The notes below the pieces were generated by a model. That model made no database searches and had not been told where the DNA came from. It saw nothing but the letters and a program-made list of their open reading frames with translations. From Roseomonas populi (GTDB lineage Bacteria; Pseudomonadota; Alphaproteobacteria; Acetobacterales; Acetobacteraceae): a stretch of 64,000 nucleotides of DNA. The position numbers and the translations under genes were made by a program. Numbering within the stretch: position 1 is the stretch's first letter; each line of letters opens with the position of its first letter. The stretch is taken from the NCBI RefSeq assembly GCF_024594815.1, contig NZ_JANJOU010000003.1:310001-374000 (forward strand), given 5' to 3'. Below, in pieces: positions 25,598 through 61,129 of the stretch.

Positions 25598-26251
25598 ATG
25601 CCCTACATCGCCAGCAACCTGATCCCGCTCGTCGCGGCCGACAGCTTTACCTTGTGGCTGTACAGGACCACCGACACCCGGGCGACGGTGCTCTCGGCCG
25701 GTTATTTCAGCGCGGCCAGGAGCCGGCTGCTGGCCGGGCACATGGTGGTGCTGGAGGCGGCGGATTCCACCGCCCTGCTGCCCGTCCGCACCAACGCGGA
25801 GGTGGGGAACGGGCTGGTGGTGGATGCCAGCTCCTCTCCGCTGCGCCTGACGGGCGCGGGGTCGCTGAACCTTGAGGCAGACCTGGCGGCCGCGGCGGTG
25901 GCGCGCGGCGTCTCCCTCGGCTCTGTGCCGAGCGGGGTGAACGAGGGCGAGACCTTCACTGTCCGCGCCACCGCCTCCGGCGCGACCAGCTCGGTGAGGT
26001 TCAGCATCCTGAACGCGAGCGGCGCCGTGGTGCTCGGGCCCAGCACGGCCGCCGTCTCCTCGGGCAATGCCAGTGCCACCTTCACCGCGCCGGTGCCCGG
26101 CAATGGCTACCGGGTGAAGGTGGAGGATGCGGCGGACTCCCTCGTCGTGCAGACCTCGCCTTCCTTCGTCGTGCTCGCCGCCTTCGCGCTGCTGGTCGAG
26201 ACCGGGCTCGGCCTGCTGATGGCCGAGGCCGGGACGCGGCTCGTCATGTAG
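25598..26251 (+). CDS. Putative phage tail-associated protein, orphan
   Basis: A 217-residue protein starting MPYIASNLIPLVAADSFTLWLYR. The first 100 residues have no recognised motif. Residues 105-190 look like a beta-sandwich (NEGETFTVRATASG; NASGAVVLGPSTAAVSSG; GNGYRVKVEDA), a layout common in phage tail or adhesion proteins. GC content and codon use match the host. It precedes a beta-helix tailspike gene on the same strand with about 100 bases between. Assignment to a tail is inference from this neighbour; it could also be an unrelated surface protein. Confidence 0.55.
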   Translation: MPYIASNLIPLVAADSFTLWLYRTTDTRATVLSAGYFSAARSRLLAGHMVVLEAADSTALLPVRTNAEVGNGLVVDASSSPLRLTGAGSLNLEADLAAAAVARGVSLGSVPSGVNEGETFTVRATASGATSSVRFSILNASGAVVLGPSTAAVSSGNASATFTAPVPGNGYRVKVEDAADSLVVQTSPSFVVLAAFALLVETGLGLLMAEAGTRLVM

Positions 26252-26354
26252 CGCGGATCGCCGAAGGGCGCCTTCCGGCGCTTGAATCCGCCCTTCAGCG
26301 ACCGCCCCTTCCCCGCCCCGCCCGACGCCCTCCCCCTTCCGGAGCCGCTACCCC

Positions 26355-27764
26355 ATGCCTGACAGCAAGATCAGCGACCTTCCCGCAGCGATCTCCTTCG
26401 CCGATACCGACATCACGCCCATCGTGCAGGGCGTCGGCGGCGCGGCCGAGACCCGGCGCGCCACCTTCGCCCAGTTCCGCAGCACGGTGATGGCGGACCG
26501 GCCGCTGCACGTGCGCGACTACGGCGCGGTGGGCAACGGCACCACGGACGACACCGCCGCGTTTCAGGCCGCGCTGAACGCCGCCGCCAGTACCGGAGGC
26601 GGCATCGTCCTCCTCGGGCCGCGCCGCTACCTGATCGACAGCGCGGAACTGGTCATCCCGCCCAATGTCACGCTTCAGGGCGGCGGAGATCCGGGCGGGT
26701 GGCGCATCAACAACGACTACAACTCCGTGCCCTACTCCATCATCCTGAATCCTGCCCGCACCATCCGCCTGCGGCGGAACTCGGCGCTGGAGCAGGTGGC
26801 GATCATCCGCAAGGGCTTCGCCGCGCCCTCCTCCGTGCGGGAGGCGCTGGACTGCGCGGCCGCCTTCGCCGGCACGGCGGTGAGCATCGGGGACGGCACC
26901 ACGGGTGGCAGCGCGACGAACGCCACCGACGCTTCCGTGCGGGGCCTGCTGATCATCGGCTTCACCTGGGGCGTGTACAGCAACGGGGCCAGCCGCACGC
27001 GGATCCGCGACGTGGTGGGGGACTGCACCAACGGCCTCTATCTCGGCAAGTCCTTCGACATCGGGCAGAACGAGCGCATCAACTGGCACCCGCTGGCCAC
27101 CACGGGCCGGACCTTCGCCGCCACCACCTGGGCGGTCACGGGCTGCGCCAACAACGGCGGCGGCCTCGTGCGGCTCACCACGGGCTCGGCGCACGAGCTG
27201 CGGGTGGGCGACGTGGTGCTGGTCAGCGGGGTCGGCGGCGTGGCGGGGGCGAACGGGCGCTTCACCGTGGCGGCCGTGCCCAGCACCACCACGCTGGACC
27301 TGCTGGGCAGCGCCTTCGCCGGCAGCTATGCCGGCGGCGGATCGGTGAACCCCACGGTCAATCACCGGCGCGGCAAGGCCTTCTGGATCACCACGGCCGA
27401 CATGCCGAACTTCGTGAACTGCTTCGAGTACGGGCACGACATCGGCTGGCACCTGGATGACCTGACGCACTCCGCGCAGTTCGTGAACTGCGGCGTGGAC
27501 GGGGTGAACACCGATCCCGGCACGATCGGCGTGCAGATGACGGGGCTGTGCTACCGCAACAAGTGGTACGGCGGCTTCTGGTCCATCCGTGGCCGCCATT
27601 CCTACAAATTTCGCGCAGGTCCGTTTCGCCCCGATCCGCCTACCTTTATGGTGGGTCCGAGTTCCTATGACCTCCGCACCCTTCGCCATGATCCCCGGTC
27701 AGGACCGGGTATATTTCGGGTACAAGGGTCGGAAAAACCGGGTATCGGGAGATTCTGCCGGTGA
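26355..27764 (+). CDS. Beta-helix tailspike / pectate-lyase-fold protein with replaced 3' end
   Basis: A 469-residue frame. It starts MPDSKISDLPAA, the head-binding-type start common in phage tailspikes (KISDLPxAxxxxxxDxxPxVQGG-like). RDYGAVGNGTTDDTAAFQAAL (about 55-75) is the hallmark of the pectate lyase superfamily (GH28-related) right-handed beta-helix. The helix proceeds with coil repeats to about residue 415 (WYGGFWSIRG). The last 50 residues (FRPDPPTF to the stop) are Pro/Arg-rich, unlike a beta-helix, and lie in the leader of the integrase gene. I infer that prophage insertion near 27600 removed the original 3' end. Such proteins often depolymerise capsule. Enzyme activity of the remnant is doubtful. 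Confidence 0.7.
   Translation: MPDSKISDLPAAISFADTDITPIVQGVGGAAETRRATFAQFRSTVMADRPLHVRDYGAVGNGTTDDTAAFQAALNAAASTGGGIVLLGPRRYLIDSAELVIPPNVTLQGGGDPGGWRINNDYNSVPYSIILNPARTIRLRRNSALEQVAIIRKGFAAPSSVREALDCAAAFAGTAVSIGDGTTGGSATNATDASVRGLLIIGFTWGVYSNGASRTRIRDVVGDCTNGLYLGKSFDIGQNERINWHPLATTGRTFAATTWAVTGCANNGGGLVRLTTGSAHELRVGDVVLVSGVGGVAGANGRFTVAAVPSTTTLDLLGSAFAGSYAGGGSVNPTVNHRRGKAFWITTADMPNFVNCFEYGHDIGWHLDDLTHSAQFVNCGVDGVNTDPGTIGVQMTGLCYRNKWYGGFWSIRGRHSYKFRAGPFRPDPPTFMVGPSSYDLRTLRHDPRSGPGIFRVQGSEKPGIGRFCR
27694..27745. promoter_or_regulatory. Palindrome and direct repeats in integrase leader
   Basis: A palindrome CCCGGTC-AG-GACCGGG (27694-27709) is followed by TATATT (27710-27715), a possible -10 element. 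The nonamer ACCGGGTAT occurs twice, at 27704-27712 and 27737-27745, spaced 33 bases. Such repeats upstream of a tyrosine integrase could be arm-type integrase sites or an operator. No matching function is proven. Confidence 0.45.
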
Positions 27765-29047
27765 AGCTGACGGACAGGGCGGTGAAGGCCGCGCAGGCCA
27801 GACAGGATGGCCCGTACAAGATGCCCGACGGCGGCGGGCTGCACCTGCTGGTCACGCCCGCCGGCGGCAAGCTCTGGCGCTACCGGTATGAGGTGCGCGA
27901 CGCCGAAGGGCGCCGGGAGAAGATGCTCGCCCTCGGGACGTACCCGGCGGTGTCGCTGGCGGATGCGCGACGCGCGCGGGAGGAGGCGCGCGCCCTGCTC
28001 GGCAAGGGGCAAGACCCGTCCGTGGAGAAGCGCACCCGCCGGGCCCAGGCCGCGGCCGAGGCGGCCACCACCTTCGAGCCGATCGCCCGCGCCTGGCACG
28101 CCATGCGGAAATCGGCCTGGTCGGAGAGCCACGCGCGGGACGTCATGCGGAACCTGGAGGCGGACGTCTTCCCGGCGCTCGGCGCGCTGCCGATCAAGGC
28201 CATCAAACCGCGCATGGTCCTCGAGATGCTCCGCGGGGTGGAGGAGCGGTCCATGACCACCGCCCGGAAGATCCGGCAGCAGGTGAGCGCGGTGTTCGTC
28301 TACGCCATCGCCGAGGACCTGGCCGAGTTCGACCCGGCGCAGACTGTCGGCGGCGCCCTGCGCCCGGCCGAGGCGGAGGAGCACCACCCTGCCCTGGTCT
28401 CGATCGTGGAGCTGCGGGAGATGCTGGCGAAGGTGGACACCCAGCCCGCCTATCCGCCCGGGCGGATCGCCATGCGCCTCCTCGCCATCACGGCCGTGCG
28501 CTCGAAGGAGCTGCGCGGCGCCATGCCGGCGGAGCTGGAGGAGCTGGACGGGCCGAACCCGATATGGCGGATCCCTGCCGAGCGGATGAAGGGGCGCAAG
28601 GGGAAGAAGCGGGAGCACGTCGTGCCGCTGGCGCCGGAGGCGGTGGAGCTGTTCCGCCTGGCCCGGGAGTTCGCCGGTCGCGGCCGCTTCCTCTTCCCGA
28701 GCGGCAGATCCTCGCTCCTGCCGATCAGCGAGAACACGCTCAACCGGATGCTCCACCGGGCGGGGTACGAGGGGCGCCACACGCCGCACGGCTTCCGGTC
28801 CAGCTTCTCCACCATCATGAACGAGCGGCACGCGGACAGTGAGCAGGACCGGGCCATCATCGACTTGATGCTGGCGCACGCGCCCGGCAGCGGGGTCGAG
28901 AGCATCTACAACCGGGCGGCCTACATGCCGCGGCGGCGCGAGCTGGCGCACGAGTGGGCGGCCCTGGTCATGGAGGGGCTGAGCCCGGCCGCCAGCCTGG
29001 TGGCCCTCCCCCGCTCCGGCATGGGGCGCCCGGCGAAAAAGAGGTGA
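27761..29047 (+). CDS. int: Tyrosine-type site-specific integrase, P4 family
   Basis: A 428-residue recombinase. Residues 1-90 form the DUF4102 arm-binding domain (KLTDRAVKAAQ; MPDGGGLHLLV; KMLALGTYPAVSLADARRAREEAR). The core-binding SAM-like domain spans about 103-190, and the catalytic domain 210-400 has Arg247 (TAVRSKEL), HGFR (His343, Arg346), His373 and the nucleophile Tyr383 (SIYNRAAY). Start is GTG at 27761. This family usually targets tRNA or tmRNA 3' ends; here it borders a disrupted tailspike gene instead and no tRNA is visible. It heads a short plus-strand unit of four genes, opposite to the late operon. Confidence 0.95.
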   Translation: MKLTDRAVKAAQARQDGPYKMPDGGGLHLLVTPAGGKLWRYRYEVRDAEGRREKMLALGTYPAVSLADARRAREEARALLGKGQDPSVEKRTRRAQAAAEAATTFEPIARAWHAMRKSAWSESHARDVMRNLEADVFPALGALPIKAIKPRMVLEMLRGVEERSMTTARKIRQQVSAVFVYAIAEDLAEFDPAQTVGGALRPAEAEEHHPALVSIVELREMLAKVDTQPAYPPGRIAMRLLAITAVRSKELRGAMPAELEELDGPNPIWRIPAERMKGRKGKKREHVVPLAPEAVELFRLAREFAGRGRFLFPSGRSSLLPISENTLNRMLHRAGYEGRHTPHGFRSSFSTIMNERHADSEQDRAIIDLMLAHAPGSGVESIYNRAAYMPRRRELAHEWAALVMEGLSPAASLVALPRSGMGRPAKKR

Positions 29048-29100
29048 ACAGAACGAGAACGCCATGTAAGGTTCCGGCCCGCGAATCGATAGGAGCCGAC

Positions 29101-29436
29101 ATGGCCAAGCCCCCTGCCCGCCCCTCCGTCCAGCAGGAGGTCGCCACCCGTATCACCCGCCTCATGCAGAAAGAGCCGACGCCCGCGCGCTGTGTGATGG
29201 AGGTGGAGACCATCGTCTCCAACCTGCGCCGGGACGGGGACGCCGAGCAGGTGTCCACCTGGCTCGAGGAACTGCGCGACGGCTTCGCCGAGGCCTCCGA
29301 GCAGGCAGCCGAAGCGGTGGACGAGGTCGAGGCCACCCAGAAGGCGGAGCGGCGCAAGGCCGAGAACGCGGTGGTCTGCCTGCGCGCCATCAGCCAGGCG
29401 TTCGGCCGCGCGCTGGAGGAGCCCGTCCTGGCATGA
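29101..29436 (+). CDS. Small prophage protein of unknown function (coiled)
   Basis: 111 residues, start ATG at 29101 with TAGGAG eight bases upstream. The middle (about 45-95) is helical and rich in Glu, Ala and Lys (EELRDGFAEASEQAAEAVDEVEATQK in shortened form), suggesting a coiled coil. No domain recognised. It follows the integrase by 53 bases and its TGA overlaps the next ATG, so it belongs to the int-proximal operon. Possibly a recombination-directionality or regulatory factor by position only. Confidence 0.7.
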   Translation: MAKPPARPSVQQEVATRITRLMQKEPTPARCVMEVETIVSNLRRDGDAEQVSTWLEELRDGFAEASEQAAEAVDEVEATQKAERRKAENAVVCLRAISQAFGRALEEPVLA

Positions 29437-29774
29437 TCCAGTGGCGTTCCCAGTGGCCCGCCGCTCTGCGGGAGGCGGTGGGACTGGCTTACAGGGAGGC
29501 AGGCGGCCGCGGCGCCGATGAGCGCGGGCGGCTCGAGGCCGCAGTCGAGGCCTTCCTCGACGCTGGCGGCGTGGCAGCGGTCCCGCGCGAGACGGTCGAG
29601 GACATCATCCGGGACCTATCCCGCGACCGGGCGGACTGGCTGCTGGAGCTGGCGGAGGCGTGGGCGCTAAGGCAGCACCGCCGGCCCCAGGACGGTCGCC
29701 TGCGGTGGCGGCGCCCGTTCCGCTGGGACAATACCGAGCCGCAGGCGCCGGGTGATCGGGTGAGGAGCGGCTGA
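29433..29774 (+). CDS. Small prophage protein of unknown function
   Basis: 113 residues, MIQWRSQWPAALREAVGLAY onward, mostly helical and arginine/tryptophan-rich at the C-terminus (RLRWRRPFRW). The ATG overlaps the stop of the preceding gene (ATGA). No membrane segment and no recognised motif. The basic C-terminus would fit nucleic-acid binding, but that is only a guess. Part of the integrase-proximal plus-strand group. Confidence 0.65.
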   Translation: MIQWRSQWPAALREAVGLAYREAGGRGADERGRLEAAVEAFLDAGGVAAVPRETVEDIIRDLSRDRADWLLELAEAWALRQHRRPQDGRLRWRRPFRWDNTEPQAPGDRVRSG

Positions 29775-29780
29775 CCTCGC

Positions 29781-30014
29781 ATGGCCGACGCGCATCTCAC
29801 CCCGGCCGCCCCCAAGGATCTCGCCGCCGCTATCTCCTACGCCCTTCGCTTCAACGATCGGGGCAAGGCGCACACGAAGGGGCTGAGGGACGATCCCGAC
29901 TACATGGCCCAGTGGATTGCCGCCCACCTCGCCCGGAGCCTCTATGTGGTGCTGAAGAAGGCGCCTGAGCCCCGGCCGCTCAACCCGTTCGGGCAGAACA
30001 ACCCCGGGGTGTGA
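29781..30014 (+). CDS. Small prophage protein of unknown function
   Basis: 77 residues starting MADAHLTPAAPKDLAAAISYALRF and ending FGQNNPGV. It is helical, moderately basic and has no recognised motif, signal or membrane segment. It starts seven bases after the previous gene and ends five bases before a strong hairpin, so it is the last gene of the integrase operon. Confidence 0.65.
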   Translation: MADAHLTPAAPKDLAAAISYALRFNDRGKAHTKGLRDDPDYMAQWIAAHLARSLYVVLKKAPEPRPLNPFGQNNPGV

Positions 30015-30018
30015 ACGC

Positions 30019-30056
30019 AAAAACGGCCAGCGCGGGAGGGTTCCCGGCTGGCCGTT
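30019..30056 (-). terminator. Terminator of the prophage late operon
   Basis: A stem AACGGCCAGC (30022-30031) with GCTGGCCGTT (30047-30056) encloses an inner CGGGA/TCCCG. On the minus strand it is followed by five T residues. It separates the rightward integrase group from the leftward late transcript and may also stop the plus-strand one. Confidence 0.9.
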
Positions 30057-30074
30057 CAGTCCCCAGCGCTTTCG

Positions 30075-30428
30075 TCACCCGCACGAGGATCGTGCGTCTC
30101 CAGCCCAGGGCGCGAGGCACAAACCTAGCCCCCCTGCTCCCGCCATTTCCAGCGCCTTCGCCTTGGTACTGTCCGTCCGCCGGGTCCACCCCAGGCCGAA
30201 GGTGTCGAAGGTGGAGAGGCTCCGGTAGTAGGTCATCCGAGCCTTCGCCAGCACCTCGATCAGCCGCGCCGGGTTGGCCTGCACGACGGCGGCCAGGGTC
30301 TTGGGCCCGAACGCCCCATCCGCCGCAACGCCGACGCAGCCCTGAAGCATCTTGATGGACCGCCCGGGGCCGGCGTTCACCCCGAAGTCGAACACCATCA
30401 GGTCCACCCCTGTCGGGAGAACGACGAT
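30075..30428 (-). pseudogene. C-terminal fragment of GH108-type endolysin
   Basis: About 115 residues in one frame, including LMVFDFGVNAGPGRS, GVAADGAFGPKTLAAV and a C-terminal GWTRR segment. This is the C-terminal half of phage N-acetylmuramidases of the ZliS/GH108 type with its PG_binding_3 domain. The catalytic N-terminal region (with the EGG motif) is missing: the frame closes at a TAG at 30429-30431 and upstream sequence is unrelated. It lies directly before the late-operon terminator, the expected place for a lysis gene. I read it as the stump of an endolysin gene cut by the cargo insertion. Confidence 0.75.
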
Positions 30429-30661
30429 CTAATGGCGGCCAGCATCGCCGAGCAGCTGCAGAACTCGGGGGACGTGTTCTTCAAGGTCGCGATCAAGATG
30501 AGCTGCCCAGAAGACTTGCGAGCGGGTTCGGCTAATCGACAGCCTCAACCGTTTGACCTTCTCCGGATGGTAGTCTTTTACGCTGCTGGCGTCATAGAGA
30601 CTGCCTATGACACCTGCCGGCTCAGGAATCTGAGTTGTCGAAGTCTGGAACTGGAGATCTC

Positions 30662-32146
30662 ATGTCGGTGGATAATTGGTCGGGAAAAAAGGAGGATTTC
30701 CGCATCCTCTTGTCTTACTTCGAGCGGCAGCTTCGACGTCACCTGCCCACGCTGCTTAGGGGCTACAAGGCACCACCGAAAGATGATGTACGCCTCCCAC
30801 TAATCGGCGACATCAGACATCACCCGTTCGCTAAGAATTGGCACCATCTGCACGATGTTGCGGAGAAGGTAGAGCGCGAAGGATTCGATATTTTAGTTCC
30901 CGAACTACGCCTTTTTCTCGAAGACCTAGTCGCGATCTGCGAATGCCTAGGCGATCCTCAAGAGGACTCATTCTTTCGGCGTCTCGCACAAAAATCTGAG
31001 TATCACTCAGCCGCCTTCGAAGCGGCTTGTCTTTTGAGCTTACGCAACACTGGTTACGAGGTGGACTTCGTTCCTCCAAATTCGACACCTGGAGCACGAA
31101 CACCTGATCTGCGCATCACGCTGCCGTCCGGCTTCGTGAACTTCGAGTGTAAGTCACTCGAGGACTTCAACGCAGCTCAAAAGAGGATCGCTCGTCTCCT
31201 CTTCAAGGTTGCACTGGAGGGGATGGACAGAGCCGACGTTAGCTCCGTCTGCACCTTCTATTTTGACGGTATTCTGGAAGCTCACGATGCGAACCTGCAT
31301 GCCCGAGCGATCCGCGACGCGGCGCGGACCACTCAAGATACTCCTGTGCGTTTGTCTGACCGGATAAGCCTGCAGTACGAGCAGGTGCGGGAATTACCTT
31401 TTATCTCTACTCCCGGGAGCATCGGACATTTCGAGATTTCTAGTCCGGATGGCTACGCTATGTCGGTGCGGGCTTGTGAGGCAGCCCTCGAGGTGCGGAA
31501 GAATTACTCAAGAACAGCGATATCCCAGTTGAAGTCGGCTCGAGGGCAGCTCCCGCCGGATGAATTCTCGATCGTCTGCATAGGCGTTTCAGAGAATCAC
31601 GGGCCCACATATCAAGAGATCATCAATTCGCTAAAGCGAGAAATATTCGACTGGCTCCCTCGGCACACTACTACGATCGATGCTGTATGGGTGATCGGAC
31701 GGCTTGTAAACCAGCATGCTCACACTACCCAGATAAACGTTATCGACGATTATCACTTCATTCCGAACCACAGCGCATCGGCGACCTGCCCGCCAGGCTT
31801 TGCCTTGTTGCAGGGCACAAATAGATGGCCCGCCAACGAGCGCGGAGAGGAGAGGATGCCGAGAGAAGGAGGGTATACCTTTACTTACAAACCGAAGCTC
31901 CCTCTTGCTCAATTGTCCGGAGCGCCGATCACGAAGATGATGTCTCCGGACGGGAAAGAACAGCTGTCGGTCTACATTGGCTTCGATCAGAAAGCGTATT
32001 TCGAGATATACTCGGCGGCAGCGGGTTATCAACAAACATCGATTGATGTTTCCCACCATACGACACTTGGCCGTCACAAGTTCGCACTGACATGGGGGGA
32101 CGGGTCGCCTCTTAAGTTTGCAATCAGTGATGCTTCAGCCGAATAA
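30662..32146 (+). CDS. Cargo protein with PD-(D/E)XK nuclease signature, candidate defence gene
   Basis: A 494-residue protein of unknown family. Residues 145-166 carry a restriction-nuclease signature: T-PDL-RI, a hydrophobic strand, then F-ECK-S, giving Asp149, Glu162 and Lys164, with a helix containing Glu120 (AAFEAACLL) ahead, as in Mrr/Holliday-junction-type folds. No methylase or helicase domain is present. The C-terminal half has no recognised domain. Start is ATG 30662 with GGAG nine bases upstream. Base composition is clearly lower in G+C than the phage genes (27 of 60 in 30661-30720). It is opposite to the late operon and flanked by broken endolysin pieces. Likely recent cargo; an anti-phage role is inference. 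Confidence 0.7.
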   Translation: MSVDNWSGKKEDFRILLSYFERQLRRHLPTLLRGYKAPPKDDVRLPLIGDIRHHPFAKNWHHLHDVAEKVEREGFDILVPELRLFLEDLVAICECLGDPQEDSFFRRLAQKSEYHSAAFEAACLLSLRNTGYEVDFVPPNSTPGARTPDLRITLPSGFVNFECKSLEDFNAAQKRIARLLFKVALEGMDRADVSSVCTFYFDGILEAHDANLHARAIRDAARTTQDTPVRLSDRISLQYEQVRELPFISTPGSIGHFEISSPDGYAMSVRACEAALEVRKNYSRTAISQLKSARGQLPPDEFSIVCIGVSENHGPTYQEIINSLKREIFDWLPRHTTTIDAVWVIGRLVNQHAHTTQINVIDDYHFIPNHSASATCPPGFALLQGTNRWPANERGEERMPREGGYTFTYKPKLPLAQLSGAPITKMMSPDGKEQLSVYIGFDQKAYFEIYSAAAGYQQTSIDVSHHTTLGRHKFALTWGDGSPLKFAISDASAE

Positions 32147-32378
32147 CCTCGCCAGTAGTTGACACAAATTGCTGCCAAACCTACGTCCGCCGTGCGGGTC
32201 GGAGCAGAACTCGGACCAGTGAAGAGCCGCCGATCAAGAAGCACGCCGGAGTACTCTCCGGACGACCTGGGCATCGGACCCGGGCACCCTAGCTGGATTT
32301 TTGGGGGTGTGGTGTATGGACTAGCCTCCGACCCGCAGTTCAGACGGCGTGGACGGCAATGGGGGCGCCTGATTACGC

Positions 32379-32585
32379 TCAGATTAGCCCCGCCACCCGA
32401 TTCAACTGCCATCCCCAAGCGAAGTCTTCCTGGGTCGGGTTTGCCTCCGTGATCTCCAGATAGCGGACCGACTGCTGGGCAGTGACCATGGCCACCAGCA
32501 CCCGGTTGGCGTCCGCCTTCCCACGCCGCTGGATCAACGAGGCAAGTGCCGCCCGGGTCATGGTGCCGCACGCCCCATCCAGCAT
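32379..32585 (-). pseudogene. Second C-terminal fragment of an endolysin
   Basis: 68 residues: MLDGACGTMTRAALASLIQ, then QQSVRYLEITEANPTQEDF and GWQLNRVA at the end. The RYLEI-EA-P-Q--F--GW-NRV pattern is the C-terminal peptidoglycan-binding part of phage muramidases (PG_binding_3-like). No catalytic region precedes it. It differs in sequence from the fragment at 30075-30428, so it is either a second lysin or a different segment of the domain. It marks the right side of the nuclease-like cargo gene. Confidence 0.6.
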
Positions 32586-32758
32586 CAGGTTGCCTTCTGG
32601 GCCGGCTAAGCTGCTGGGGCGAGTGAGGTAGTTCTAATATCGCAATTTCCTATGAACCCCGGCTTCCCGACACCTATGGTGTGGACATCGCAGGCTCCTC
32701 CGTGGCTGCCTGCGCATGACGGATGTTTGTGCCGCCGCCACAGGACTGCGGGGCATAG

Positions 32759-33031
32759 ATGCCGAGGTACTTCTTCCATGTCCACGATGGGCAATACCTG
32801 CCAGACCGAGAAGGGACTGACTTACCCGACCTGACGGGCGCTAGGCTGAATGCAGTGCTCTATACAGGCGAACTTTTGAGCAGAGACACGGAGGGCTTCT
32901 GGAACGGTGAATTGTGGCACATGGACGTGACCGACGAAGTCGGAGTGATCCTGTTCACCCTCGACATTGTTGCCACAGACCCGACCGTAGTCCAATTAGA
33001 AGGCTCGCCCGGCCACGAGCCCGATGGATGA
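32759..33031 (+). CDS. DUF6894-like small protein
   Basis: 90 residues starting MPRYFFHVHDGQYLPDREGTDLPD. This start (RYFFxxxDG, DxxGxELPD) is shared by a large family of small alphaproteobacterial proteins of unknown function (DUF6894). No membrane segment. G+C is lower than in the flanking lysis genes. It is on the opposite strand to the late operon and so looks like cargo. Several copies per genome are usual for the family in some Rhizobiales; their role is not known. Confidence 0.75.
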   Translation: MPRYFFHVHDGQYLPDREGTDLPDLTGARLNAVLYTGELLSRDTEGFWNGELWHMDVTDEVGVILFTLDIVATDPTVVQLEGSPGHEPDG

Positions 33032-33044
33032 GCGCCCGATCGGC

Positions 33045-33548
33045 TTAGAGCCGGTTGGCTGCCACAGCTTCTAGCGCCTCCCGCCAGTGCCCCGCCCAGG
33101 TCTCCGGGTGCGGCTTCCCCGGGTGCCAGCGGGACAGGTAGTAGCCCCAGCCGGCGTCGGGCTGATCCACCCCAGGCAGCGCCTTGGGGCTTCCCCAGAG
33201 CAGCAGACGGGCAAAGGCGCAGGCCAGGAGGTCGTTGTGCTCCAGGGCAGCATAGACGGTCGCCCGATCGGTGGAGACCTGCAGGTCGGCGCATACCCGC
33301 TCCGCCAGGCGCTTCGTGGCGCCGCCGGTCAGCACCTCGGCCGTGGCGCTCATCGGCCCGCCCTCGAACTGCCACCAGCCGCGGGCTGGCCCGTTGCCGC
33401 CCTGTCGCCGGGCCTTGAAGGCCCCACTCTCCTGGCCGCCGATTGCCAGCAGCATCACCCGGGCGCGGTCGTCGCTCTTCACCCCCAAGCCGGCCAGGTA
33501 GGCCAGCACGGGATCCACCGTCAGGCGGATGCAGAGGGCGGGGGTCAT
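33045..33548 (-). CDS. Phage lysozyme-like protein (putative endolysin)
   Basis: 167 residues. It starts MTPALCIRLTVDPVLAYLAGLG and has LLAIGGQESG (about 31-40), where the Glu fits the catalytic residue of lysozyme/transglycosylase folds, followed by GPARGWWQFE and a helical end with YYLSRWHPGKPHP. No signal peptide is seen, so release would require a holin. Its ATG overlaps the stop of the holin-like gene (ATGA), the usual lysis cassette arrangement. It is probably the functional lysin now that the GH108-type ones are broken. Family assignment is by pattern only. Confidence 0.65.
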   Translation of the reverse strand: MTPALCIRLTVDPVLAYLAGLGVKSDDRARVMLLAIGGQESGAFKARRQGGNGPARGWWQFEGGPMSATAEVLTGGATKRLAERVCADLQVSTDRATVYAALEHNDLLACAFARLLLWGSPKALPGVDQPDAGWGYYLSRWHPGKPHPETWAGHWREALEAVAANRL

Positions 33549-33826
33549 CGGCCGCCTCCGACGAAGCGGTCCAGGGTGGCCGCGCGCGCCGCGCTGCCGG
33601 CACTGGAGCCGATGTGGTAGCTGACCACGGCCGTGTTCCAGCCGATCACCGCCCCGAGGGCGATGTTGAACATGTCCCGGTTCTCGGGCGGGATCTGGAT
33701 GAAGATCAGCGCCACCAGCATCAGAATGAGCAGCAGGGGCGAGACGGCGGTGACGATGAGCTGTCCGATGCTCGGCCGGCCAGGAGGCACGACAGGATCG
33801 GCAGCCGGCGCAAGGGCGTCGGACAT
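33545..33826 (-). CDS. Holin-like small membrane protein
   Basis: 93 residues from the ATG at 33826 (MSDALAPAADPVVPPG). A polar N-terminus is followed by a strong membrane helix (about 25-47, LIVTAVSPLLLILMLVALIF), a second weaker one (MFNIALGAVIGWNTAVVSYHIG, about 53-73) and a Gly/Ser/Arg-rich tail. Size, topology and direct coupling to the lysozyme-like gene fit a class II-like holin that opens the inner membrane at lysis. A longer upstream frame exists but lacks a good ribosome site. Confidence 0.65.
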   Translation of the reverse strand: MSDALAPAADPVVPPGRPSIGQLIVTAVSPLLLILMLVALIFIQIPPENRDMFNIALGAVIGWNTAVVSYHIGSSAGSAARAATLDRFVGGGR

Positions 33827-34393
33827 GAGGTGTTTCCATTTTCGGTGAGGTATCCGGCTACCGGCCAGACGCGGAGCTTCATCAATTTTGACGAGGCCGT
33901 GCCACGCGGAGCGCGAGGGCAACTGAAACGATTGTATTTTCTTCGGATACTTGCGCTGTGACAGACGCTCCTGGACTGCGTTAGCTCTCCCGTCTGCAGC
34001 TGCGGGGATGGACCCGTCTCGGCCCGAACGAGGCACAACGAAGCGCCAGAAGCTACGGGGTCTGGACGCCGTCCGACGTGCAGCCGGTGTCGAACCCGGT
34101 CCGCGACGCCTCTTTGCGGCCTTCCCAGCTGACCGGCCGGTCGTGGGTTACTCTGCGCTAAGGTGAAAGCGGCCGATGTGAGCTACACGGGGACATGCAC
34201 ATCAGCACCTCCCGACCGAGCGAAATCGAAGCGATCCACGCCGCCTGCGATGCCGCCCTTCGCCGTTCGACCGAGGTGCTGGCGCTCCCAGTGTATCCTT
34301 GGCTGCCGCCTTCACGGCGGCCCGGAGAAGTACCTTGCGAGCCCTCGCCGAAAGAGGCGGCAGAGCCCGCCGACTGATCCGCCCGGCGTGGGG
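33827..34393. other. Gene-poor region between lysis genes and tail-distal membrane genes
   Basis: About 570 bases. Only one small plausible frame (34195-34377, plus strand) is seen. Base composition is mixed and slightly lower in G+C around 33880-33960. No terminator, tRNA or repeat was found. It may contain a promoter for the lysis genes. Confidence 0.4.
34195..34377 (+). CDS. Possible small protein of unknown function
   Basis: A 60-residue frame starting MHISTSRPSEIEAIHAACDA, on the opposite strand to the late genes. The first 30 residues look protein-like (amphipathic helix), the end is Pro- and Glu-rich. The ribosome-binding site is weak (GGGGAC). It may be cargo or may be chance coding in a gene-poor stretch. 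Confidence 0.3.
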   Translation: MHISTSRPSEIEAIHAACDAALRRSTEVLALPVYPWLPPSRRPGEVPCEPSPKEAAEPAD

Positions 34394-34696
34394 CTACTCG
34401 ATGTCCTTGAACACCGGCACCTCGGGCAGCACCCGGTCATCCCCGGCGAGGATGAGCCGCTCGGCCGCGACGTGCCGGATCTTCACGGCCGCCAGGGTTA
34501 GGACGCTGATGAAGGCATGGGCGTGCGCCAACTTGCGCCGCGCCATGGCCAGCGCCATCTCCAGCTCCTCCTCATCCTCCTTGTTGATGGCGTCCCGCCG
34601 CGAGCGGATGGCGCCGTAGGCGGTGAGCAACCCGGCCAAGCCGGCGAAGAACATGGAGCCGATGGCGACGATCTGCTCTGCGGTCAGGCTAGGCAT
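34394..34696 (-). CDS. Small phage membrane protein with helical tail
   Basis: 100 residues: MPSLTAEQIVAIGSMFFAGLAG with one membrane helix at about 8-27, then a charged helix (RRDAINKEDEEELEMALAMAR, about 33-53) and a second amphipathic stretch. Its ATG overlaps the end of the preceding gene. The single N-terminal anchor plus a long charged helix resembles holin-associated or spanin-like proteins, but no diagnostic motif is present, so function is open. Confidence 0.6.
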   Translation of the reverse strand: MPSLTAEQIVAIGSMFFAGLAGLLTAYGAIRSRRDAINKEDEEELEMALAMARRKLAHAHAFISVLTLAAVKIRHVAAERLILAGDDRVLPEVPVFKDIE

Positions 34697-35177
34697 ATCG
34701 GCGCCACAACCTCCACGAGAGGATGCCCGCGATCGTCGTGAGCGCGAGCAGCAGGGTGATGATGGGGGAGAACGGGTCGAGGCTCATTGCGCCCACGCAG
34801 ACCGTCACGTGCGCCAGGACGACATAGCCGGCCGTCTGCACGAGAGCGCGCTGGCGCAGGCTCCCCATCCGCAGCGCGGCGATCTGCCAGGGGAAGAGCG
34901 CGAAGCCGATCCAGGGCCAGAGCCAGCCGCCCAGCACATTCAGGATGGCCAGCGCCGGACGGTCTGTCAGGGCGTCGGGCGAGAGCAGGTTGGCCACGGA
35001 CCAGCTCAGCCAAGTGATGGCGAAGGTGGCCTCCAGCCATTGCGGGTAGCGGAAGGGATCGCGGAACCAGCCGGCGGCAGCGCTGGCCGACCCGGCCGCG
35101 GCCCTGGCCGCTGCATCAAGGGCGGCGTCACTGGCGCCCGTGTTGCCCAAGGGGCGCAGGTTGGGGCTGCTGGGCAT
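34689..35177 (-). CDS. Phage membrane protein, unknown function
   Basis: 162 residues from the ATG at 35177 (MPSSPNLRPLGNTGASDAAL). Residues 1-50 are polar and alanine-rich; four hydrophobic segments follow (about 50-66, 75-97, 108-126, 134-152). DPFRYPQWLEATFAITWLSWSVANLL is striking for its aromatic content. It sits between the tail fibre genes and the lysis genes and may take part in lysis or superinfection exclusion. No family recognised. Confidence 0.6.
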   Translation of the reverse strand: MPSSPNLRPLGNTGASDAALDAAARAAAGSASAAAGWFRDPFRYPQWLEATFAITWLSWSVANLLSPDALTDRPALAILNVLGGWLWPWIGFALFPWQIAALRMGSLRQRALVQTAGYVVLAHVTVCVGAMSLDPFSPIITLLLALTTIAGILSWRLWRRYA

Positions 35178-35191
35178 GGCGTGGCCCTCCC

Positions 35192-36352
35192 TCAGCACCG
35201 CGTCACGACGCGCACCCAGCCCGGGCCGCCAGCGCCGCCTGTGCCGCCCGAGCCGCCCTGCGAGGCCCCACCGCCTCCACCGCCGGCGCCGCGGTGCCCT
35301 GCCCCGCCAGCGCCGCCAGCCGCTCCCACCGCGCTGCCCCCGCCTCCACCGCCGGAGCCAGCGCTGTCCCCGGTCGGCGCGTTGACGGGCGAGCTGCCGG
35401 CCGCGCCGATCGCGCCGGCCGGGCCGCCGTTGAGTAGGCCAGCCGCGCCGCCGATTCCGCCGGCGGCGGCGACATTGGCCGCAGTTACGCCCCCGCCCGA
35501 GCCGCCGCCTGCCGGCCCGACGCCCGCGGCCGGACCTGCCGAACCGCTGTTGGCATTGGCGGCCGCAGCGCCGCCGGCGCCCAGCCCAGGGATGGTCTGG
35601 GCGGTGCTGCCAGCGACGCCCCCGGTGAGGCCCGCCGCGCCGGCGGTGGCGCCGCTCGCATCGCCACCGGCACCGCGGAAGCCCGCGCCCCCGCCGCCCC
35701 CAGCGTTGACGCCGACGCCCCCACCGGCGCCCGCGCCGCCCCCGTGGACCTGAAGGCGAACCTGGTTGTTCGGGAACCAGTCGGTCATCCCACCGCCGGT
35801 CCCGGCTGACCCAGCCGTGTTGTCGGCCGTGGCGCCTGCACCTCCCGCGCCACCGGCCCCGACCGTGATCTGCGCCGTGGCGGGCAGCTCCAACGCCTCG
35901 AAGGAGCGGCGCCGCATCGCGCCACCGCCGCCTGCACCGCCGCCGGAGCCGGCCGTGCCGGAGGCAAGGCGCGCGCCCCCTCCCCCACCGCCCCCGCCGC
36001 CGACCACGTCCACCTCCACGACGACGGCGCAGGCCCGCTTGGTCCAGGTGTAGGGGCCGCCCGGTGTCGCGTAGGTGTCCACGAAGGCCCGCGGTGTGGC
36101 TGTGGTGGCGATGCGGTTGCTGCTGTCGCCTTCGGTCGGGAGCGGCGCCGTGGGCGCGCCAGTGAGCGCCGGGCTGTCCATCCCGAGGGCGCCGAGCGCC
36201 GCGCGGGCGCCTGCCGCGTTCGACGCGCCCGTGCCGCCGCTGGCGATCCCGAGCGGCACGGTGAGCGTCAGCCCATCGAAGGTCGGGCTCTGCGCGGCCG
36301 CCGGAGCGGCCAGGAGTGCGAGGGCGAGCGCCCCGCGGATCAGGACACGCAC
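35192..36352 (-). CDS. Glycine-rich tail protein with signal peptide
   Basis: 386 residues starting at GTG 36352. The first 22 residues look like a Sec signal peptide (RVLIRGALALALLAAPAAAQ). Residues 22-100 resemble tail-fibre linker (TVPLGIASGGTGASNAAGARAAL, PTEGDSSNRIATTA-AFVDTYAT). From about 105 to the end it is a glycine-rich domain with long runs of Gly, Ala and Ser (VVGGGGGGGGG, GAGGAGG repeats), like the glycine-rich domains at the tips of phage receptor-binding proteins. The start overlaps the esterase gene by 13 bases. A signal peptide on a virion protein is unusual. Confidence 0.75.
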   Translation of the reverse strand: MRVLIRGALALALLAAPAAAQSPTFDGLTLTVPLGIASGGTGASNAAGARAALGALGMDSPALTGAPTAPLPTEGDSSNRIATTATPRAFVDTYATPGGPYTWTKRACAVVVEVDVVGGGGGGGGGARLASGTAGSGGGAGGGGAMRRRSFEALELPATAQITVGAGGAGGAGATADNTAGSAGTGGGMTDWFPNNQVRLQVHGGGAGAGGGVGVNAGGGGGAGFRGAGGDASGATAGAAGLTGGVAGSTAQTIPGLGAGGAAAANANSGSAGPAAGVGPAGGGSGGGVTAANVAAAGGIGGAAGLLNGGPAGAIGAAGSSPVNAPTGDSAGSGGGGGGSAVGAAGGAGGAGHRGAGGGGGGASQGGSGGTGGAGGPGWVRVVTRC

Positions 36353-60050: not shown

Positions 60051-60475
60051 ACCGAATTGCTTCGCCTAGCGATGCAACACGCTCTGCCCCACCGTAATTC
60101 CCCCGGACCGGGGAAGGACCCAACGGGGTGGGGGTGCTATACCCCACCGGCACGGTCCTGCGGTCGTTCAGGACGTATGCCGATGGACGGCGCTTCGGCG
60201 CTGGGCATGAGGCTCGGCAGGCCGTGTACCCAACCGGTCAGGCATGAATGCCAGGGCGGCGCGCTTCGGCTTTGCCATCGAGCCTTCGCCTTGAAGTGAA
60301 GGAGGCCAGAAATGGAAAGCCCCGCGCAGCGAGGCTGGCGGGGCTTCGGTCGCACTTATGGCGATGCAAGCAATCTAATCAGTTCGAAGCCTTCGTCAAG
60401 GCCCACCTAAGTGGCTATGGCCTTCGCCCCGAACCGAAGAGAAGATTGGGGGTGCAGTGATTGCGATGAGTGAAC
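60051..60475. other. Region between terminase genes and early module
   Basis: About 425 bases. Holds the end of the repeat cluster, a hairpin GGTGGGG/CCCCACC near 60136-60160 and a terminator-like stem AAGCCCCGC (60317-60325) with GCGGGGCTT (60338-60346), which on the minus strand is followed by TTTCCATTT. It probably separates early from late transcription and may hold the late promoter and the cos site. No gene is convincing. Confidence 0.5.
60317..60346 (-). terminator. Possible terminator before late genes
   Basis: Nine-base perfect stem AAGCCCCGC with GCGGGGCTT over a 12-base loop; on the minus strand TTTCCATTT follows. The late operon lies downstream on that strand, so an antiterminator could act here, as Q does in lambda. 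Confidence 0.5.
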
Positions 60476-61129
60476 ATGAACAAATCCCCCGGCACCTCCC
60501 TCTCCAGATCGATTGGGAGCGACAGCCTCAAGGATGTCTTGGCTACCAGTGGTGATATCGGTCTCAACGCCGCGGTGGATTCAGGTGCTCTAGATGGCGT
60601 CCCCGTTCTGAACGTGTTGACGGGCCTTTACAAGGCCCAGCGCGATGTGCGGCAGGTCCTGTATCAGCGCAAGATCGCTCGATTCTTAAAGGGCCTGGAT
60701 TCGACGTCCGCTGCAGAAAGAGAGAAGTTCACGAATGATTTGGAGAAAAGCGGGAAGCTCGAGGAGTTTGGAGAAACTATACTTGAGCTGATCGACAAGA
60801 GCGATGAGGTCAGGAAGCCTCGCATTGTCGGCCGGATAATGGCCGCACATATCAGCGGGAGTATTTCCTATGAGCAGGCAATACGCGTTTCAACGATGAT
60901 CAACCGCGTGTTTCTAGACGATTTGAACTTCCTGGCCAACTTTGTCTGGGGATTCCCATCCGACTTTGATCGGGAAATCGCTGCTTCACTAGCTGCCGCC
61001 GGCTTTTTGAGGTCGGACGGCACGGATCTCGGCGGCATCGGCGGCAGCTTATCGTCATCCAAAATCCGATATCGCCGAACGCGATACGGCGACATCGTCG
61101 TTGAATATGGCCTGGAATGGCAGAGCTGA
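60476..61129 (+). CDS. Low-GC cargo protein of unknown function between early and late modules
   Basis: 217 residues from the ATG at 60476 (MNKSPGTSLSRSIGSDSLKD). Residues 35-60 are hydrophobic and amphipathic (LNAAVDSGALDGVPVLNVLTGLYKAQRD). The middle (65-150) is helical, with a regular pattern of Lys, Glu and Phe (KIARFLKGLD; FTNDLEKSGKLEEFGETILELI; RIMAAHISGSI). The C-terminus repeats Ser, Gly and Arg. No family recognised. Base composition is below the phage average (32 of 60 in 60781-60840) and it is on the plus strand within a minus-strand genome, so it is probably cargo. A superinfection-exclusion or defence role is a guess. Confidence 0.6.
   Translation: MNKSPGTSLSRSIGSDSLKDVLATSGDIGLNAAVDSGALDGVPVLNVLTGLYKAQRDVRQVLYQRKIARFLKGLDSTSAAEREKFTNDLEKSGKLEEFGETILELIDKSDEVRKPRIVGRIMAAHISGSISYEQAIRVSTMINRVFLDDLNFLANFVWGFPSDFDREIAASLAAAGFLRSDGTDLGGIGGSLSSSKIRYRRTRYGDIVVEYGLEWQS

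Follow-up and report, generated by a model that had tools for sequence, protein, structure and literature searches.

What does the prophage in this part of the Roseomonas populi genome carry in its lysis region, and on whose nucleic acid, if any, would the product act? The window analysed here (a stretch of 64,000 nucleotides) contains a lower-G+C gene, hereafter the cargo gene, for which a preliminary description had proposed a stand-alone nuclease of the PD-(D/E)XK type, possibly an undescribed anti-phage factor. Overall, the observation was confirmed, while the interpretation as nuclease and cargo was supported in part.

The cargo gene and its prophage surroundings

An intact, stop-free open reading frame of 494 codons was found at 30662..32146 (plus strand), and the gene originally proposed is thus real. 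A plausible ribosome-binding site, GGAG (30653..30656), lies five bases 5' of the ATG; an alternative start at an in-frame TTG, 27 bases 5' of the ATG, is possible, with GGAG present at the ATG. The G+C content of the gene is 53.3% against approximately 70% for the surrounding region, in agreement with the lower G+C noted earlier, and its G+C at codon positions 1/2/3 (0.58/0.43/0.59) shows a coding-like bias. Third-position G+C was 0.91–0.96 in four of the seven comparison frames, the remaining three being one wrong-strand frame and two that are themselves low in G+C (0.65). The low-G+C segment spans from about 30.4 to about 33.0 kb, the value recovering in part at 32.2–32.6 kb. Together with the neighbouring genes described below, these sequence features support in part the view that the gene is foreign-looking, stand-alone cargo.

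The late operon of this tailed phage (terminase, portal, head protease and tail genes) occupies the minus strand from about 36 to 60 kb and, because the cargo gene is on the plus strand, the two are convergent; the preliminary description likewise had them on opposite strands. On the other side, a tyrosine integrase gene (27761..29047, plus strand; Pfam Arm-DNA-bind_3, Phage_int_M and Phage_integrase) is followed by two small genes in the integrase-to-cargo interval (29101..29774, plus strand), which show 82–83% identity with the same pair in a related genome, G739. Within 26355-29047, a pectate-lyase-like gene, which we take to be of the tail-spike type, shares four bases with the beginning of the integrase gene, both lying on one strand. 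A 77-aa gene (29781-30014) and a 100-aa gene (34394-34696), both searched in PHROGs only, had no match there.

The cargo gene was described as lying in the lysis region, and endolysin remnants were indeed found on both sides of it. The left flank of the low-G+C segment is an endolysin-type remnant with a PG_binding_3 domain only (30075..30407, minus strand; Pfam), and the right flank is a GH108 endolysin remnant assigned to a PHROG endolysin family (32379..32585, minus strand), which corresponds to the C-terminal third of the protein and shows 80% identity over 64 aa with the intact endolysin of genome G387. The remnants, C-terminal parts of two different endolysins, have the same orientation and a direct repeat in common (82% over 33 bases). 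Beyond the right-hand remnant are a DUF6894 gene of lower G+C (32759..33031, plus strand; Pfam) and, next to it, a conserved phage gene (33045..33539, minus strand) that was first judged by look to be an endolysin and that PHROGs assigns instead to phrog_3108, a PHROG of unknown function; no intact endolysin was identified in the window. An exchange of lysis modules may have brought the cargo gene in. An exact 11-base direct repeat surrounds it (30458-30468 and 32204-32214), where about 1.2 such pairs are expected by chance; searches for transposon-type repeats around the gene gave none beyond chance or endolysin kinship, and no clear target-site duplication. As to the late terminator proposed beside the gene, terminator-like sites in the region numbered 8 against 2.5 expected, none of them clearly placed. 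Rfam gave no match at gathering thresholds within 26000-36000.

The ten neighbouring proteins between 25.6 and 34.0 kb were searched against Pfam (E≤0.01), and the matches comprised the integrase, the pectate-lyase type domain, the two PG_binding_3 remnants and DUF6894, plus marginal ones. Within this scope the cargo gene has no methylase, helicase or toxin-antitoxin neighbour, as had been suggested.

A predicted nuclease core in an orphan protein

The absence of a recognisable family, remarked upon from the sequence, was reproduced in database searches: the cargo protein matched no family in Pfam or in PADLOC-DB 2.0.0 (both at E≤10, the latter meaning no known defence-system model), gave a single NCBIfam match (E 0.17, far under its curated cut-off), and had only single weak matches in PHROGs and among PDB sequences. 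Phage and plasmid records, viral contigs and genome contigs yielded no clear homologue: tblastn at E≤10 had no match in plasmids and a single one in phages, to an unrelated stretch of a tail protein (E 4), and no relative was confirmed when viral and genome contigs were scanned with patterns from the single protein. The contig scans miss distant relatives because they are built on exact peptide words. Genome searches in sets of 1, 385, 397, 395, 398 and 175 (1,751 in all, overlapping) returned the cargo gene itself and weak matches only, and at E≤0.01 the gene was not found in the other 14 genomes of the genus that were searched. Four weak genome matches were assessed (L004, L005, L007 and L022; L006, L023 and L024 were left out), and all four were rejected: two lie within open reading frames resembling what we take to be MreC (L004) and a Kdt-type transferase (L007), one is in the frame opposite a presumably helicase-like gene (L005), and L022 (E 4.6e-4) belongs to a presumed ImuB-like protein without the motif. 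Two further matches (L002 and L003, E 0.009 and 0.010 in the 397- and 395-genome searches), not significant alone, led to the motif pattern used below. The literature listings for Roseomonas prophages, TrlF and Rmr contained nothing on the cargo gene. By these sequence comparisons the cargo gene is an orphan at present sampling.

The residues on which the nuclease proposal was founded are all where they had been placed: E120 (31019..31021), D149 in TPDL (31106..31108), and E162 and K164 in FECKS (E162-C163-K164, 31145..31153). The bare form D-x(8-20)-[DE]-x-K is uninformative, occurring in 77% of 20,000 shuffles of the cargo protein; the strict form occurred in 0.28% of shuffles, but was written post hoc with the sequence already known. 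D149 corresponds to motif II of the PD-(D/E)XK superfamily, E162-C-K164 to motif III and E120, in the preceding predicted helix, to motif I. In PMC1913061, PD-(D/E)XK families are described as having the same core with these motifs and as usually escaping standard searches.

A single-sequence AlphaFold2 model of the full-length protein was poor (pLDDT 37), with a helix at 117–127, strands at 133–137, 149–154 and 157–161, a helix at 166–186 and a helix in place of the expected last core strand. The protein may accordingly be divided into an N-terminal region (aa 1–116, 30662..31009) of mostly helices in a low-confidence model; a nuclease-like core (aa 117–186, 31010..31219) consisting of the helix with E120, strands, D149, E162-x-K164 and a helix; and a C-terminal part (aa 187–494, 31220..32143) with low-confidence strands predicted near its end (aa 424–489). 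The fragment aa 70–216 was modelled by AlphaFold2 with nine motif-family sequences that had been retrieved by the cargo protein's own motif (mean pLDDT 63.6, pTM 0.59). The fragment model comprises a helix (104–128), three strands (134–136, 150–154 and 157–161), a helix (171–190) and a strand (197–201), which is the element order expected of PD-(D/E)XK proteins, although the last strand has a pLDDT <50 and is unreliable.

Foldseek gave no match with E <0.001 (best E 0.31 in PDB and 0.033 in BFVD). A probability >0.4 was obtained for 7 of the 50 PDB matches listed: VRR_NUC (4qbo), I-Ssp6803I (2ost, four chains) and two R2 retrotransposon proteins. We take these seven to be nuclease-bearing and of the PD-(D/E)XK type. 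The BFVD matches listed with telling names include a Holliday-junction resolvase, VRR-NUC and endodeoxyribonuclease I. With its nearest folds in the superfamily (VRR-NUC 4qbo, I-Ssp6803I 2ost and archaeal Hjc), the cargo protein has in common the predicted element order, a D and E-x-K across a strand hairpin and a Glu in the preceding helix; it differs in its length of 494 aa with extra N- and C-terminal parts, in the lack of a sequence-family match and in structural matches that fall below significance. The proposed PD-(D/E)XK core is moderately supported, by strict motif, element order and class of match, the structural E-values being non-significant and the last strand unreliable. On these models the cargo protein probably contains a PD-(D/E)XK-type core and is best read as an orphan variant within a superfamily already known.

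Motif-sharing proteins and their defence-like islands

The pattern PD-hyd-x6-G-x-hyd-x-FE-x-K-x-L retrieved 36 loci from genome contigs, nine of which (L032, L033, L037, L039, L041, L043, L047, L055 and L056) belong to one family of about 310–355 aa. The other 27 were set aside on their translated stretches, most of them looking like chance; L030 (helicase-like) and L031 are possibly other nuclease-like proteins outside the nine-member family. The sole viral match of the motif pattern (L026) was discarded; it falls within a structural region of a phage. Two alignments of the family, A1 (with the cargo protein among its sequences) and A2, produced 71 and 76 pattern matches in viral contigs, of which none was confirmed.

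The D, E and K are common to the nine members because the retrieval pattern contained these residues; the equivalent of E120, which is outside the pattern, is present in 9/9, six of these being near-identical. When the motif was included, the family profile scored the cargo gene at 12.3 bits (whole) and 14.1 bits (core), above 2,000/2,000 shuffles, a result biased by the way the family was retrieved, and hhalign of the family against the cargo protein gave E 9.5e-5 (prob 58.7, aa 80–169). When the pattern columns were omitted, 278/2,000 shuffles did as well before the PD and nothing aligned after the motif. In 200 genomes the family profile found nothing at E≤0.001, also missing the cargo gene in its own genome. 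Because the homology test without the pattern columns failed, the cargo gene was not placed in this family, with which it has the core motif in common, the remainder being not alignable. The 310–355 aa proteins appear from their sequences to be another family of the same superfamily, with no kinship to the cargo gene established beyond the motif.

The two also differ in context: six of the nine family members are within multi-gene islands, whereas the cargo gene is alone. These mobile defence islands (L041:718-7998, L037, L039, L047, L055 and L056, from Acetobacteraceae and Mesorhizobium) count as one lineage because they are near-identical; their gene families were identified on one copy, and in the other copies by near-identity or by eye. 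AbiEi was present in 6/6, with the adjoining 197-aa gene and the nuclease-like gene; AbiEii, GajA-like and GajB-like genes were present in 5/6, as was a TrlF-family ATPase, the remaining loci ending early. The AbiE and Gaj genes are divergent from an operon of the 197-aa gene, a 346-aa PD-(D/E)XK-motif protein and the TrlF-family ATPase, and this three-gene operon is a candidate for an unnamed defence system. As to the other three members, L032 lies near a ParA-like gene, and no defence gene was recognised by eye beside L033 or L043. The contexts of the 310–355 aa family are defence-like. An Acinetobacter plasmid member, WP_004708988, was found by tblastn from L032 and has one extra residue between the G and F-E-x-K. 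This PD-(D/E)XK-motif protein, on an Acinetobacter johnsonii plasmid (L063:9856-12969), lies directly downstream of genes with PADLOC matches to RmrT and RmrA.

A variable cargo place and the possible role of the gene

With the phrog_3108 protein (33048-33539) as query, 7 distinct loci were found in 5/15 genomes of the genus, the window included, and six of these were compared (the window, G739, G582:C40, G582:C79, G387:C34 and G000:C17; G671 was left out). Both flanks are shared with the window in G739 and G387, where the integrase-side small gene is 83% and 72% identical, respectively. Between these flanks lie, in G739, an HTH_3 gene with a HicAB-like pair (HicB above and HicA below the Pfam cut-off) and, in G387, a D12 adenine methylase. 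Each of the two G582 loci has just one flank in common with the window, that of phrog_3108: G582:C40 (L018:1165-4847) has a 383-aa gene of phrog_3482 (a PHROG of unknown function), a 200-aa gene resembling a membrane protein and a PDC-M24B-like gene (PADLOC, 7.7e-13), and in G582:C79 (L019:6638-8125) there is a convergent gene of 495 aa that matched no family. Transposase-like genes, judged by eye, lie near the contig end in G000:C17, and in G764:C59 the small integrase-side gene stands alone among chromosomal-looking genes. The four comparison sites, two from one genome, thus differ in content; this supports, in a small sample, a variable cargo place such as the hot spot put forward for the locus.

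Prophage defence hotspots such as those of P2 are alike in being accessory places with differing content in related prophages; the present gene differs from them in having no PADLOC match, in lying at the lysis end of an alphaproteobacterial tailed phage and in its defence role being putative. In E. coli, according to PMC9519451, 12/21 newly selected defence systems were in intact prophages, several of them at fixed hotspots. The step from a nuclease-like fold to defence would follow, by analogy, from place and from this precedent.

On the reading we prefer, the gene would be a single-gene lysogenic-conversion cargo, horizontally acquired, at the lysis-gene end of the prophage. Its product would have a metal-dependent PD-(D/E)XK nuclease core (E120, D149, E162 and K164) between N-terminal helices and a long C-terminal part that would serve in trigger sensing or target binding. 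It might cleave foreign nucleic acid as this enters or replicates, or abortively that of the host, and prophage and lysogen would benefit as competing phages or plasmids are excluded; we infer that a trigger-dependent or abortive mode would spare the host without a methylase. Catalysis, target, trigger and a role in defence are all put forward here as conjecture. That the gene is a nuclease-type, single-gene lysogenic cargo which probably keeps out other phages or mobile DNA comes close to an even chance in our judgement. The narrower proposal of a new-family, single-gene prophage immunity factor, in which a PD-(D/E)XK effector with its own N- and C-terminal sensing or target-binding parts in one chain sits at a lysis-end hotspot and would need no methylase, helicase or antitoxin, is made tentatively, as possible but doubtful.

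These readings compete with others. A real but unrelated protein that is not a nuclease, its motif being coincidental, seems rather unlikely: the frequency of the bare motif in shuffles, the non-significant fold matches with the unreliable last core strand, the lack of a family match and the failure of the pattern-independent comparison with the motif family are all consistent with it, whereas the strict motif in order, E120 in the preceding predicted helix, the predicted element order and the consistent class among the best-probability structural matches argue for more than coincidence. A PD-(D/E)XK nuclease might instead act on the DNA of the phage itself or of a selfish element, as a resolvase, a homing-type enzyme or an enzyme of gene exchange, and not in host defence. 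VRR-NUC, Holliday-junction resolvases and the homing enzyme I-Ssp6803I are the nearest structural neighbours of the model, and a position between two endolysin remnants is possibly a trace of nuclease- or recombination-driven insertion. Resolvases, however, are compact, unlike this protein with its large extra regions, a foreign composition and an accessory place speak against a core phage function, and there is neither a clear target-site duplication nor a repeat pair beyond about the chance expectation; we regard a nuclease for own DNA as unlikely. Very improbable is a gene left behind by module exchange in the lysis region, in decay and with no function under selection, since the 494 stop-free codons, coding-like composition and good start site speak against decay, even though both flanking endolysins are remnants and the gene was not found in the 14 other genus genomes searched at the threshold used.

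If lysogenic nuclease cargo is the correct reading, a stand-alone nuclease effector without a named family would be added to those described, the gene would be a test case for how a host is spared by a nuclease lacking a modification partner, and the stretch from lysis side to integrase in this group of prophages would be a source of more unnamed cargo.

Elsewhere in the window, a second lower-G+C orphan gene (60470-61129, 219 aa), without a match in Pfam, NCBIfam, PADLOC or PHROGs, lies directly upstream of the small terminase gene.
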